A stretch of DNA of 64,000 nt. It comes from Gordonibacter massiliensis (ex Traore et al. 2017). GTDB lineage: Bacteria; Actinomycetota; Coriobacteriia; Coriobacteriales; Eggerthellaceae. Position 1 is the first letter of the stretch. Each line of letters begins with the position of its first letter. This document shows, piece after piece, positions 48,957-58,705 of the stretch. The stretch covers positions 1,736,001 through 1,800,000 of the forward strand of contig LT827128.1 in the NCBI GenBank assembly GCA_900170005.1. The letters are read 5' to 3'. The notes under the pieces were generated by a model. It was not told the origin of the DNA. It did no database searches and was given only the letters and a program-made list of their open reading frames with translations. Position numbers and translations under genes: made by a program.

Positions 48957-51635
48957 TCAGATTGCCGGGTGCGCGGCGAAGAACCGCTCCGCGATGCGCG
49001 CGGCCTCGGCGGCGTCCTTGCCGTAGTAGTCCGCGCCGATCTCGCGCGCGTAGTCGGCCGTGAGCACGGCGCCGCCCACGAACACGGCCACACCGGGCAC
49101 CTGCTCGTGCAGAAGCTCGATGGTGCGCTCCATCGCCTTCACCGTAGTGGTCATGAGCGCCGAGAGGCCCACCAGGCGCGCACCCTGCTCCCGCACCGCG
49201 TCCACCACCCGCTCGGGCGCCACGTCGCGGCCGAGGTCGACCACGCGGTAGCCGTAGTTCCCCAAGAGCATCTTCACGATGTTCTTGCCGATGTCGTGTA
49301 TGTCGCCCTGCACGGTGGCCAGCACGATGACCTTGCCGTCGTCGGCGGCGGCACCCTCCCCCATGCTCGCGCGCACCACGTCGAAGCCGGCCTTGACGGC
49401 CTCGGCCGACGCCATGAGCTGGGGCAGGAAGAACGCGCCGCGCTCGAAGCGGGCGCCCACGACGTCGAGCGCAGGGATGAACACGCCGTCGATGACGGCG
49501 AGCGCGTCGTGGCCCTCGAGCAAACGCTCGGTCGCGGCGGCCATGGGGCCTTTGCGGCCCGAGAGGATGAGGCGCTCCATGGCGCGCACCTCGTCGGCGA
49601 CGTCGGCGAGCGCGGGCGGGATGGGAATGGCGTCCGCGGGAGCGCCGGCGGTGGCGGGAGCGGGCGACGCGGTCTTGCTGTCATCCTGAGCGTAGGCGCG
49701 CAGCGCGGCCCCCTTGTCATCCTGAGCGCAGGCGCGCAGCGCCGGAGTCGAAGGATCCCCCGCGGCGCCAGCTTGAGCGCTCCCGGCCACGCCCGCGCGC
49801 GCCGCGTACGGGTCGAGCGCATCCGCGTACCGCTCGACGTAGGCGGCGGCCCCGCGGTCGCTGCCGTTCAGCACCTGCCAGGCGGCCAGGGTGTCGCGGT
49901 AGCGGCCGGAAAGCGGGTTCAAGATGGGCAGGTCGAGCCCCGCCCCGAGCGCCGCCGCCAGAAACGTCGCGTTCATGAGGCCGCGCTGGGGCAGGCCGAA
50001 GCTCACGTTCGACACGCCCAGCACCGTGCGCACGCCCAGACGCTCCTTCACCAGGCTCACGGCGCGCAGGATCTCGCGCGCCTCATCCTGGTTCGTGGCC
50101 GCCGCCATGACCAGGCAGTCGATGGCAACGTCGGCGCGCGGGATGCCATGCGCCTCCGCGGCCGCCACGATGCGCTCGGCCACGGCCAACCGGCCCTCCG
50201 CCGTGGGCGGGATGCCGTCCTCGTCGAGCGTGAGGCCCACCACCGCGCAACCGTACCTCTTCACGATGGGCAGCACGGCGTCCAGGTTCTCGCGCTTGCC
50301 GTTCACGGAGTTCACGAGCGGCTTGCCGGCATAGCCGCGCACGGCCGCCTCGATGGCGGCCGGGTCGCTGGAATCGACCTGCAGCGGCAGCGTCACCGTG
50401 GCCTGCAAACGCTCCACCGCGGCCGCGAGCACGACGGGCTCATCCAACTCCGGCAGCCCCACGTTCACGTCGAGAACGCGCGCGCCGGCTTCCTGCTGGG
50501 CCACGGCCTCGCCCACCAGGTAGTCGTAGTCGCCGGCGACGAGCGCCGCCTTCAGCTTCGGCTTGCCCGTGGGGTTGATGCGCTCGCCGATCACCGCCAC
50601 GCCGGCCGAGCCTTCCTCCAGCACCACCGCCTCCTGCGCGCTCGTCACCGCGAACGCGCGCACGGGCTCGTGCGGCGCCGGAGTGCGGCCTGCCACGAGC
50701 GCAGCCAGCTCCTGGGTGAACGCCGGCGTCGTGCCGCAGCAACCGCCCACCACGCTCGCGCCCGCGTCCACGATGCGCGCCATGACGGCGGCGAACTCCG
50801 CCGGCTCCACGTCGTAGCGGGTGCGGCCGTCCACGATGTGCGGCAGGCCGGCGTTGGGGCGCACGACCACGGGGCAGCGGGCGAAGCGCAGAAGCTCGTG
50901 CGCCACCGGCTCCAGCTCGGCGGGCCCCAGCGAGCAGTTCACGCCCACCACGTGCGCGCCTAGGGCCGAGAGCGTGGCCGCGGCCACGGCGGGCGGCGTG
51001 CCGAGGAACGTGCGGCCGTCCTCGCCGAACGTCATGGAGGCGAAGATGGGCAGGTCGGAGCAGTCCTTCGCCGCGAGCACGGCCGCCTTGGCCTCGCGCA
51101 GGTCGGTCATGGTCTCGATGAGCACGATGTCGCATCCCGCGTCGACCACCGCGCGCACCTGCTCGGCAAACACCTCGTACGCGCCCTCGAACGACAGCGT
51201 GCCCAGCGGCTCCAGCAGCACGCCGATGGGCCCCAGGCCGCCCGCCACGTAGCGGGCGCCGGCCGCGCGGGCGTTGGCCGCCGCCGCACGGTACACGTCG
51301 GCGACACTCGCGCGCCCCTCGAGCTTGTGGGAGTTGGCGCTGAACGTGTTCGTGGTGATCATCTCGGCGCCCGCGCGCACGTAGCCGGCATGGATGTCCG
51401 CGATGGCGTCGGGGTCGCTGAAGTTCAACAGGTCGGGCAGCTCGCCGTGCGCCGTGAGGCCCCGCTCCTGCAGCAGCGTGCCCATGGCCCCGTCCTGCAC
51501 GAGGAAGTCCTGCCCGCGCAGCACCCGCTCCAGATGCTCGTCGGCGATGCGCAGGCCGGCAAGCGGGTCGGGCAAGCCCTCCGCGGCGTCGCGCAGGGCG
51601 CGAGCGGCGGCTTCGATGTCGATCGGTTCATCCAT
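48957..51635 (-). CDS. metH: Cobalamin-dependent methionine synthase lacking the activation domain
   Basis: The enzyme transfers methyl from 5-methyl-THF to homocysteine. The 892 residues hold: homocysteine domain (about 35-350; QDGAMGTLLQERGL, zinc ligands in GVNCSLGP and GGCCGTTP), pterin domain (about 370-610; GERINPTGKPKLK), B12 cap (about 680-745) and B12-binding domain (about 765-890; GDIHDIGKNIV). The C-terminal AdoMet activation domain is absent and is encoded as the preceding separate gene. Residues about 626-652 are encoded by two family 1 repeats between the pterin and B12 modules. It overlaps the activation gene by 8 bp. Confidence 0.94.
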   Translation of the reverse strand: MDEPIDIEAAARALRDAAEGLPDPLAGLRIADEHLERVLRGQDFLVQDGAMGTLLQERGLTAHGELPDLLNFSDPDAIADIHAGYVRAGAEMITTNTFSANSHKLEGRASVADVYRAAAANARAAGARYVAGGLGPIGVLLEPLGTLSFEGAYEVFAEQVRAVVDAGCDIVLIETMTDLREAKAAVLAAKDCSDLPIFASMTFGEDGRTFLGTPPAVAAATLSALGAHVVGVNCSLGPAELEPVAHELLRFARCPVVVRPNAGLPHIVDGRTRYDVEPAEFAAVMARIVDAGASVVGGCCGTTPAFTQELAALVAGRTPAPHEPVRAFAVTSAQEAVVLEEGSAGVAVIGERINPTGKPKLKAALVAGDYDYLVGEAVAQQEAGARVLDVNVGLPELDEPVVLAAAVERLQATVTLPLQVDSSDPAAIEAAVRGYAGKPLVNSVNGKRENLDAVLPIVKRYGCAVVGLTLDEDGIPPTAEGRLAVAERIVAAAEAHGIPRADVAIDCLVMAAATNQDEAREILRAVSLVKERLGVRTVLGVSNVSFGLPQRGLMNATFLAAALGAGLDLPILNPLSGRYRDTLAAWQVLNGSDRGAAAYVERYADALDPYAARAGVAGSAQAGAAGDPSTPALRACAQDDKGAALRAYAQDDSKTASPAPATAGAPADAIPIPPALADVADEVRAMERLILSGRKGPMAAATERLLEGHDALAVIDGVFIPALDVVGARFERGAFFLPQLMASAEAVKAGFDVVRASMGEGAAADDGKVIVLATVQGDIHDIGKNIVKMLLGNYGYRVVDLGRDVAPERVVDAVREQGARLVGLSALMTTTVKAMERTIELLHEQVPGVAVFVGGAVLTADYAREIGADYYGKDAAEAARIAERFFAAHPAI
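49680..49758. repeat. Two family 1 repeats inside the metH linker
   Basis: TCATCCTGAGCGTAGGCGCG (from 49681) and TCATCCTGAGCGCAGGCGCG (from 49717), the latter continuing to GGAGTCGAAGGATCCC, lie in frame within metH. Read on the coding strand they give the repeated peptide ALRACAQDD / ALRAYAQDD. Confidence 0.85.
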
Positions 51636-56070: not shown

Positions 56071-57582
56071 TCATCCCTCGTAGCTCACGCGGGCGCCCTG
56101 CGGGGTGTCCTCGATCACGAAGCCCAGGCCGGTGAGGCCGTCGCGCACGGCGTCGGCGCGGGCCCAGTCCTTGGCGGCGCGGGCCTCGGTGCGGGCGGCC
56201 AGCAGGGCGTCCACGGCCTCGGACGCGCTCGCCCCGTCGTAGCCGGCAACCTCGGCGGCCAGCGCCACGACCTCGGGCGGGTACGCGTCGCCCTCGCCCT
56301 CTGCAGCCGCGTCGTCCGCAACCACGTCGACGCCGAGCACGCCCAGCAAGTCCACCACCAGATCGCGCGCTTCGCGCACAGGCGGCACGTCGGCGAGCGA
56401 CAGCGTCTTGCCCGCCGTCTGGGCGTTCACATCGGCGATGAAGTCGAACACCTCGCCCAGCGCCTTGCACGTGTTGAAATCGTCATCCATGGCCAGGATG
56501 AACGCCATCTTGGCCGCACGCGTGCGCTCCATGAACGCGCGAAGGTCGAGCGGCGAGGGAATATCCTGGGCGTTCTCCAGCAGCCAGTCCAGGTTCTTCA
56601 CGGCGTTCTTGATGCGTCCGAGCGCGGCGCCCGCCTCGGCCAGGCGATCCTCGGAGAAGTCGAGCGGGCTGCGGTAGTGCGTCTGCAGCATGAGAAAGCG
56701 CAGCACAGCCGCGTCGGTGGTCTTCAGCACGTCGCGCAGCAGCTTGAAGTTGCCGAGCGACTTGCTCATCTTCTCGGAGTTGATCTGCAGCATGCCGCCG
56801 TGCATCCAGTAGTTCGCGAACGTGCAGCCGCAGGCGGCCTCGCTCTGGGCGCGCTCGTTCTCGTGGTGCGGGAACACCAAGTCGCCGCCGCCGCCGTGGA
56901 TGTCGAAGGGCAGCCCCAGGTACTTGCGCGACATGGCCGAGCACTCGATGTGCCAGCCGGGGCGGCCCTGACCCCAGGGCGAGTCCCATGCGGGCTCGCC
57001 GGGCTTGGCGGCCTTCCACAGGGCGAAATCGAGCGGGTCGCGCTTGCGGTCCTCGATGCCCTTGCCGTCGGCTCGCAGCTCGCGGTGGCCGCATTCCATC
57101 TCGTCGATGTTGCGCCCCGACAGCTCGCCGTACGCGGGGAACGAGCGCACGCTGAAGTACACGTCGCCGTCCACCTCGTAGGCGTGCCCGCCGTCGACGA
57201 GCTCTTGGATGAGCTCGATCATGGAGGGTATCTCCTCGGTGGCCTTCGGGCGGATGTCGGGGTCGAGCACGCCGGCCGCGTGCATGTCCTCGATGAACGC
57301 CTCGGTGTACTCGGCGGCCACCTCGGCGGCGCTGCGGCCCTCCTCGTTCGCCTTGCCGATGATCTTGTCGTCCACGTCGGTGACGTTCTGCACGAACGTC
57401 ACGTCGAAGCCGCGCCACATGAGGTAGCGGCGGATGACGTCGAACGAGATGAACGTGCGCGCGTTGCCGATGTGGATGTAGTTGTACACGGTGGGGCCGC
57501 ATACGTACATGCCCACCTTGCCGCGCTCGCGCGTCTCGAAGTCCACCTTGCCGCGCGTTTTCGTGTTGTAGAGTCTGATCAT
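56071..57582 (-). CDS. cysS: Cysteinyl-tRNA synthetase
   Basis: CysRS charges tRNA-Cys. The 503 residues show class I features: [16 protein letters not shown], zinc-site Cys in [20 protein letters not shown] (HIGN at the HIGH position), [24 protein letters not shown] and KMSKSLGNF, followed by the DALR-type helical anticodon domain. It lies downstream of ispF and cysE on the same strand, as in other bacteria with cysE-cysS clusters. Confidence 0.96.
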
Positions 57583-57728: not shown

Positions 57729-57883
57729 TGTCATCCTGAGCGAGCGACCGCAGGGAGCGGAGTCGAAGGATCCCGTGCGGCGATAGCAGGAAGCGTTACG
57801 GCTGGCGCCGCACGGGATCCTTCGACTCGCTTCGCTCGCTCAGGATGACAGAGGGGCGCTGGGCTCGCTCAGGACGACAGAAA
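57729..57883. repeat. Family 1 repeat array forming a long hairpin between ispF and cysS
   Basis: A full unit (57729-57783) is followed by an inverted full unit (57802-57850), so TGTCATCCTGAGCGAGCGA pairs with TCGCTCGCTCAGGATGACA and the outer parts fold into a long imperfect hairpin. A third half-unit (GCTCAGGACGACAG) ends near 57882. The array fills most of the 57583-57946 gap and could terminate or attenuate transcription into cysS. Confidence 0.8.
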
Positions 57884-57946: not shown

Positions 57947-58705
57947 CTAGGAGCTTGAACGGCGAACCAACAGGCACACGGCGGTCGCGGAGATGCCTTC
58001 CTCGCGGCCTTCGAAGCCCAAGTGCTCGGTGGTGGTGGCCTTCACGCCCACGTTCTCCGCCGGAACGCCCATGGCGGCGGCCAGGTTCGCACGCATCTCG
58101 TCGCGGTACGGCGAGAGCTTCGGCGCCTGCGCGGCGATGACGGAATCGACGTCGAGGATGGCGTAGCCCTCCGCACGCACCTTGTCGGCCACGGCGGCCA
58201 GCAGCTTGAGCGAGTCGGCGTTCAGATAAGCAGGGTCGGTGTCGGGGAACAGCTTGCCGATGTCCCCGCCGCGGATGCCCCCCAACAGCGCGTCGGCGAC
58301 GGCGTGCGCCAGCACGTCGGCATCGGAATGCCCCAAAAGGCCGCGCGTATGCGGGATATCCACCCCGCCCAAGATGAGCTTGCGCCCCTCGGCGAACGCA
58401 TGCACGTCGTACCCCTGCCCGATGCGCAGGTTGGCAGGATTGAACGCCTGCGAGTTGTCATCCTGAGCGAAGCGACCGTAGGGAGCGGAGTCGAAGGATT
58501 CCGTGCGGCCGTCAGGCCGAGAGGTTTCCGGTTGGCTCCGCACGGGATCCTTCGACTCCGCGCTGCGCGCTCCGCTCAGGATGACATCATGTCCGGGTTC
58601 GCGCACCCCGCTCAGGATGACATCGTCCGACTGCGGCGCTCCACTCGGGACGACATCGTGTCCCGGCTCGCACGCTCCATTCGGGACGGCGTCGGCGGCG
58701 CTCAT
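57947..58705 (-). CDS. ispF: 2-C-methyl-D-erythritol 2,4-cyclodiphosphate synthase with repeat-derived N-terminal extension
   Basis: IspF catalyses the cyclisation step of the MEP isoprenoid pathway. The canonical domain begins at about residue 93 (LRIGQGYDVHAFAEGRKLILGG, metal ligands Asp and His in YDVH) and continues with HSDADVLAHAVADALLG and VKATTTEHLGFEGREEGI. Typical IspF is about 157 residues; here ATG 58705, which overlaps the ispD stop (ATGA), gives 252. Residues about 10-88 are encoded by family 1 repeats (repeated D(D/V)V(I/V)xSG units). If translation starts further in, no good ribosome site is visible. Confidence 0.92.
   Translation of the reverse strand: MSAADAVPNGACEPGHDVVPSGAPQSDDVILSGVREPGHDVILSGARSAESKDPVRSQPETSRPDGRTESFDSAPYGRFAQDDNSQAFNPANLRIGQGYDVHAFAEGRKLILGGVDIPHTRGLLGHSDADVLAHAVADALLGGIRGGDIGKLFPDTDPAYLNADSLKLLAAVADKVRAEGYAILDVDSVIAAQAPKLSPYRDEMRANLAAAMGVPAENVGVKATTTEHLGFEGREEGISATAVCLLVRRSSS
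58457..58693. repeat. Family 1 repeat array coding the IspF extension
   Basis: A full unit begins with TCATCCTGAGCGAAGCG near 58459, an inverted unit (GGATCCTTCGACTCCGCG) ends in CAGGATGAC near 58585, and three more decaying half-units follow (CAGGATGAC near 58613, CGGGACGAC near 58646, CGGGACGGC near 58682), spaced about 33-36 bp. All lie in an open ispF frame. Confidence 0.85.

Follow-up and report, generated by a model that had tools for sequence, protein, structure and literature searches.

A dispersed palindromic repeat inserted behind the ispF start codon probably encodes an N-terminal tail of IspF in Gordonibacter massiliensis

Introduction

In-frame palindromic repeats within protein-coding genes have been found in Rickettsia, Wolbachia and an archaeon, while REPs located inside genes have been described from various bacteria (PMC10969869, PMC2229807, PMC4224334, PMC2996958, PMC3733652). 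Rickettsia palindromic elements (RPE) are described as palindromes of about 105-150 bp that are present in many copies and lie in frame in unrelated genes (PMC10969869, PMC2229807). Where REPs coincide with annotated N-termini, they have often been set aside as wrong start calls (PMC3733652).

Here we analyse a dispersed palindromic repeat that is located behind the start codon of ispF in Gordonibacter massiliensis, a member of the Eggerthellaceae, and compare this locus with its counterparts in congeners and in other genomes of the family. IspF is essential in the MEP pathway.

Results

The window that we analysed is a stretch of 64,000 nt from contig LT827128.1, and the genome it belongs to is referred to as G000. 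The ispD-ispF region of the window contains the following features:

57947..58705, minus strand: ispF ORF, 252 aa, with ATG at 58705 and stop codon TAG at 57947; matches Pfam YgbB and TIGR00151
58702..59544, minus strand: ispD ORF, upstream of ispF, with Pfam IspD (PF01128) at residues 47-268
58702..58705, minus strand: ATGA stop-start overlap of the ispD TGA and the ispF ATG
57947..58426, minus strand: canonical IspF core from R94, containing the columns invariant in a 48-sequence alignment (D100, H102, H134 and others); modelled with high confidence

In profile searches, ispF at 57947-58705 is the only PF02542 match in the genome; its product matches YgbB at residues 93-246 (219.6 bits, cut-off 26.7) and TIGR00151 at residues 94-248 (201.9 bits, cut-off 116.45). 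Ordinary IspF sequence makes up the last 159 residues of the 252-aa frame and begins with R94, the first residue of RIGQGYDVH. D100, H102 and H134, which are invariant over the 48 aligned sequences, are presumably the metal-site D and H residues. The original prediction, made from the sequence alone, had described an ATGA overlap between ispD and ispF, which we found at 58702-58705, and an ispF frame that stays open through at least five repeat units, in agreement with the five repeat heads that we counted (two in the palindromic element and three in tandem). The repeated D(D/V)V(I/V)xSG peptides that it had read from this frame are likewise there, as HDVVPSG, DDVILSG and HDVILSG. Its estimate of an extension of about 92 residues holds for the length ahead of the core, which is 93 residues, but only about 83 of these are inserted. 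The ispD ORF starts 46 residues before its Pfam domain, and this leading stretch is not made of repeats.

The repeat-derived part of ispF consists of a full element and a series of half-units:

58451..58699, minus strand: 249-nt insertion, approximately residues 3-85, placed by the distances from the ispD stop codon to RIGQ; borders uncertain by a few codons
58456..58586, minus strand: full palindromic element, 131 bp, with TGTCATCCTGAGCG at both ends in inverted orientation
58601..58693, minus strand: three degenerate tandem half-units (family D1), start-to-start spacing 36, 33 and 36 nt counted from the element

The distance between the ispD stop codon and RIGQ is 275 nt here, compared with 26 nt in the congeners G002, G003 and G004 and 74 nt in G001. 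ispD and ispF overlap in three of these four congeners, by ATGA in G002 and G004 and by GTGA in G003, and the overlap is absent in G001. In the overlapping congeners ispF starts 10 codons before RIGQ, whereas it starts 93 codons before RIGQ here, which argues that 249 nt (275 versus 26 nt, or 83 codons) were inserted behind the native start. Native-looking codons flank the repeats on both sides, M-S before and about Q-A-F-N-P-A-N-L after, and apart from these roughly 10 native codons the first 93 residues of IspF are repeat-encoded. Together with the overlap in congeners, the flanking codons indicate that the overlapping ATG is the old start and that the repeats lie behind it. At the level of the sequence, the insertion, its position and its frame are thereby established.

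The three tandem half-units (58601-58624, 58634-58657 and 58670-58693) are 92, 79 and 71% alike. The same family is also represented downstream of ispF:

57729..57850, strand not given: second full element, before a cysS-like ORF (56071-57582, cysS named by eye), outside called genes

With up to one mismatch allowed, TGTCATCCTGAGCG has 273 sites in the genome, compared with none for the reversed pattern; the repeat family is far beyond chance. When the 131-bp element was used as a BLAST query, at least 85 rows were obtained from the genome, many elements being matched twice because they are palindromic. At first look, 40 of 191 repeat candidates were scored. We examined 92 stretches, which are places among the matches listed and not all 273 sites, and found 57 paired-end copies in them, 41 of these being 109-132 bp long. 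The exact motif is present in 33 of 138 genomes of the family and absent from 105, with 180 sites in the genome studied here, 136 in G003, 81 in G001 and one each in G002 and G004, and with 358 in G024 (another genus), 207 in G078 and 150 in G032. This distribution is very patchy, with large differences even among genomes of one genus, as would be expected if the repeat is mobile or horizontally transferred.

Two candidate modes of mobilisation were rejected. For a RAYT transposase, as in the GTAG REP type, we found no PF01797 (Y1 transposase) match in the repeat's own genome; the control matched in 5 of 14. For a MITE with target-site duplication, direct duplications at the element borders are not above expectation in the 57 copies, with one at 2 bp (0.41 expected), one at 3 bp (0.68 expected) and none at 4-9 bp. 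As for affiliation with CGTC REPs, a TGTC/CGTC-type tag followed by ATCCT...AGGAT within 56 nt was found in 119 of 150 exact heads, which fits a stem led by A and T. An 8-9 bp stem with a 4-5 nt loop was not found, as the six commonest half-units fold into a 5-bp outer stem, an internal loop and a variable inner hairpin, and the tail does not fit CCA, being CCCG in 77 and CTTC in 24 of the 119. The repeat therefore fits neither REP superfamily fully. It does form a palindrome of about 100-150 bp in many dispersed copies, and in-frame copies lie within unrelated conserved genes, as in RPE.

Gene calls in the fetched stretches were made with a codon-usage score of our own (28 training ORFs). For 115 repeat blocks (head with at most one mismatch), this score gives 74 that lie outside genes, 27 that are N-terminal to an ORF, 12 that are internal and 2 that close a coding frame; the 12 internal blocks include ispF itself and two single 13-nt matches that may be due to chance, and of the two C-terminal blocks one belongs to the ECF-ATPase insert. 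By the same score 83% of the bases around the blocks are coding, so that there is a strong avoidance of genes, as would be the case if such insertions are mostly harmful. In-frame hosts are hypF (two sites) and metH-like, acyl-CoA dehydratase activase, double ECF-type ATPase-like and pcrA-like genes, and the repeat is found at the C-terminal ends of carA and cmk. In cmk (cytidylate kinase; L146, G000:C1 ~768026-768189) the repeat-encoded C-terminal tail comprises about 60 residues. One further host is located within the window:

49676..49799, minus strand: in-frame element in a metH-like gene (~48960-51635), between the pterin-binding and B12-binding domains

The corresponding linker of the metH-like gene is without repeat in G003, but a repeat-derived stretch is present there near the N-terminus, and the G001 linker has the repeat-like SERSAESKDPVR. 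Repeats are also present in the hypF, ECF-ATPase-like and phnL-like genes of G003, where the unit numbers differ. In hypF, G003 has repeats at both sites, the repeat is absent in G001, the G004 linker is longer but not repeat-made, and none is visible in the partly masked G002. The closest parallel to ispF is the phnL-like ABC ATPase gene (L178, G000:C1 ~2291944-2292170), in which six tandem half-units follow the start codon in steps of about 30 nt; two units lie behind MATV in G003 and none is present in G002 and G004 (MALLEIDD), and the gene had no match in G001 at 1e-30. Repeat-encoded sequence is also found on the N-terminal side of a menD-like, two ABC ATPase-like and an ACP synthase-like ORF (L182, L188, L204 and L217 of G000, named by eye), where it would be translated only from an upstream start. 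L200 resembles an AAA-type ATPase by eye, but had no Pfam or NCBIfam match at 1e-10.

IspF was matched in 133 genomes, each representing one species, so that the comparison is one between species. N-termini were compared in 30 of them (own genome, four congeners and 25 other family members); outside this comparison stand 103 genomes, including G124, G042, G053, G082 and G070, whose matches reach unusually far upstream. In G058, which belongs to another genus, ispF begins with MAEP-VILSGARSAESKDPEHQ-PFNPASLRIGQG; this start region is 51 nt longer, and the single half-unit that follows codon 4 is read in the frame used by the ispF repeats of the window. Its congeners G056 and G059 read MADQ(T/A)F(D/S)PASLRIGQG, and G057 is also without repeat. 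By parsimony, the two ispF insertions are apparently independent, with transfer between genera as the alternative. G024, which has the most repeats among the 138 genomes, has none in ispF, and no repeat peptide was seen at 80 IspF loci, of which up to 45 residues were covered. Four of these 80 loci (L071, L075, L077 and L096) continue in frame from upstream coding sequence, at least three of them with an IspD-like tail. Relatives without an open frame through the repeats, the observation that the original prediction had named as speaking against it, were not encountered: the relatives read lack repeats at this place, except for G058 with its own in-frame copy.

For neighbouring tandem heads whose frame can be reached from a coding segment, the spacing is divisible by three in 14 of 14 pairs, one of which is an ispF pair. 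Without ispF, this applies to 13 of 13 translated pairs, compared with 13 of 36 pairs without coding frame (Fisher p = 4e-5, a value that is too small because the 13 pairs come from six genes and the requirement for an open ORF somewhat favours spacings divisible by three). Among pairs on the N-terminal side, 11 of 14 spacings are divisible by three, one being the second pair of ispF, or 10 of 13 without it, and the three spacings of ispF itself (36, 33 and 36 nt) all are. This pattern fits a putative growth in steps that each keep the frame.

According to the original prediction, the repeats would be translated at the N-terminus of IspF, provided that initiation does not take place at an internal start. 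Scanning the frame to residue 105, we found three standard starts beyond ATG1. GTG34 and GTG55 are part of the repeat stretch, whereas GTG101 lies inside the core behind the invariant D100; the nearest non-standard start is CTG93. The one that decides the minimal length of the tail is:

58541..58543, minus strand: GTG55, the final standard start before the core, located 39 residues upstream of R94 in a region predicted to be strongly paired

Since there is no ATG, GTG or TTG between residue 56 and the core, with GTG101 being the next, the core would be preceded by no fewer than 39 residues whichever upstream standard start is used; initiation at GTG34 would leave 60 residues before R94 and initiation at GTG55 39, compared with 10 in congeners. 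For the region around each start, the predicted mean unpaired probability is 0.67 at ATG1, 0.26 at GTG34, 0.06 at GTG55 and 0.21 at GTG101. With the coupled ATG being the most accessible of the starts, the whole stretch is probably translated, and the full extension of about 80 extra residues would very probably be made from this ATG. We rejected the open frame as evidence for translation, because 6 of 73 comparable windows (loci without a called in-gene repeat, each element in both orientations) are also open with a length divisible by three. An open frame would thus arise by chance in about 8% of cases, and the case for translation rests on the start codons and on the relatives. The native start upstream and the lack of a standard start beside the core support what had been predicted.

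Alternatively, the repeats could constitute a 5' leader of ispF, with translation starting at GTG34, GTG55 or CTG93 and a stable hairpin tuning ispF output relative to that of ispD. The sequence GAAGGA lies a few bases upstream of GTG55, the element is predicted to fold into a long hairpin, and most REPs at the 5' ends of ORFs in P. putida, C. koseri and S. maltophilia were inferred to be perhaps non-coding (PMC3733652). We nevertheless consider a leader improbable. Both GTG codons lie in predicted strong pairing and would still leave 39-60 residues before the core where congeners have 10, the native start is located upstream of the insert, the spacings are multiples of three, and the phnL-like parallel keeps its frame at different unit numbers. 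In addition, N-terminal RPE-1 proteins of R. conorii are stated to be expressed in the same source (PMC3733652).

Assuming that the tail is translated, the question is whether it is tolerated or has been recruited. AlphaFold2 (48 sequences) predicts residues 1-89 of IspF to be without regular secondary structure, with blocks at pLDDT 43-71, and the core blocks at pLDDT 84-98 except for the last two residues; low pLDDT is not proof of disorder, and IspF was modelled as a single chain and not as a trimer. In the solved IspD/IspF fusions (PDB 1w55, 8xhu) the IspF core is located behind more than 200 residues, and other solved IspF cores follow about 20 extra chain residues, which are probably tags. 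For the inserts common to G000 and G003, pN/pS is 0.40 in hypF, 0.31 in the phnL-like gene and 0.92 in the poorly aligned ECF ATPase insert, compared with 0.15, 0.12 and 0.19, respectively, in the remainder of each gene. Constraint on the inserts thus appears to be relaxed but perhaps not absent, and the IspF tail is most likely a tolerated, flexible spacer.

It is quite improbable, in our estimate, that the tail is more than tolerated and was recruited for a selected function, such as linking IspD with IspF or controlling IspF. In favour of recruitment, insertion behind the ispF start has occurred twice, apparently independently, and the hypF and phnL-like inserts show fewer amino-acid than silent changes per site. 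Yet constraint in these two inserts is more than two times weaker than in the rest of the gene and all but disappears in the poorly aligned ECF-ATPase linker, unrelated host genes carry similar peptides, and the congeners do without the tail.

An assembly error as the source of the ispF insert is extremely improbable: local errors do exist, as the same assembly has an adapter-like insert with stop codons in ispH, but the ispF insert consists of repeats that are native to this genome, keeps its frame over 249 nt and has similar in-frame counterparts in other assemblies (G003, G058).

The ispH gene itself (L269, G000:C1:769031-770029), the only PF02401 match in the genome, is broken at ~769430 by a 146-nt low-GC stretch with stop codons, which is flanked by a 31-nt direct repeat. 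This stretch contains what we take to be a near match to the end of the Illumina P7 adapter, followed by poly-A, and therefore looks like an assembly artefact and not like a real loss.

Discussion

We propose that a dispersed palindromic repeat of the Eggerthellaceae inserted behind the native ispF start, and that the insert then grew by whole-codon tandem half-units. Ribosomes finishing ispD would restart at the overlapping ATG, translate the repeats in a single frame (DVILSG...AQDD) and proceed to the IspF core, which is unchanged, yielding a catalytic core that is preceded by 93 residues instead of 10, probably without structure. The tail would persist because additions at the N-terminus of IspF are tolerated and because a change in length survives only if it is a multiple of three. 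Taken as a whole, this explanation is, in our judgement, very likely to be correct, with translation, the order of events and neutrality as the parts that we infer.

For N-terminal repeats in general, the obvious objection is a misplaced start codon. In ispF, the native start overlaps ispD, no standard start lies next to the core, and ispF of another genus has received an insertion, apparently independently; together these points make translation hard to avoid, and on these sequence-based grounds the usual explanation is largely excluded.

A broader reading is that the family continually supplies proteins of the Eggerthellaceae with new termini and linkers, with some tails, including that of ispF, being functional or tuning output via a hairpin within the coding sequence. 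We regard this as unlikely. If it were true, the repeat would insert after start codons, at the ends of housekeeping enzymes and between their domains, and would lengthen by whole-codon half-units. The phnL-like gene, with 0, 2 or 6 units, offers a natural series of one gene in which the tolerance of housekeeping enzymes to repeat-encoded sequence can be tested.

Among the matches listed in the open-access literature, we found no prior report of the motif or of such repeats in Eggerthella or Coriobacteriia. A search for TCATCCTGAGCG gave three papers, on mouse and Drosophila judged by listing, and one for an IspF N-terminal extension with a repeat gave nothing on topic, judged by title. The papers listed for palindromes in Eggerthella deal, again by title, mostly with gut microbiota statistics and otherwise with CRISPR, gene regulation or drugs, and MITEs in Eggerthella led to a CRISPR paper. 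The text of PMC3733652 does not mention Eggerthella, Slackia or Actinobacteria. The present case differs from the known in-frame repeats in its lineage, in a repeat that matches no REP superfamily in full, in the apparent growth by whole codons through tandem half-units and in an N-terminal location for which a misplaced start is largely excluded. As far as the open-access literature searched goes, protein-coding palindromes are thereby extended to a lineage without described ones.

How does the locus compare with known systems? The solved IspD/IspF fusions (1w55, 8xhu) also carry extra polypeptide on the N-terminus of the IspF core, but it is a catalytic domain there and repeat-encoded sequence here, where ispD and ispF are separate ORFs. 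The PARCEL coding palindromes (PMC2996958) are likewise tandem palindromic coding repeats of patchy distribution; they are described as amphipathic repeat domains associated with membrane proteins and with genes whose function is unknown, in contrast to the housekeeping-enzyme tails seen here. CGTC-tagged REPs (Di Nocera, PMC3733652) share several features with the repeat, in that TGTC is a listed tag variant, A-T pairs lead the stem, no dedicated transposase is known and intragenic copies exist, whereas the stem, loop and tail of the repeat do not fit. The Wolbachia palindromic elements in addA, addB and priA (PMC4224334) are in-frame palindromic inserts in conserved genes as well, but come from another lineage, and the cases described there lie inside genes and not behind an overlapping start. 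By description, the repeat resembles RPE, palindromes of about 105-150 bp in many copies and in frame in unrelated genes; RPE belong to the Rickettsia lineage, and in the repeat studied here tandem half-units seem to add codons stepwise. By this analogy, the repeat appears to work like Rickettsia palindromic elements and to represent a new family in Eggerthellaceae.
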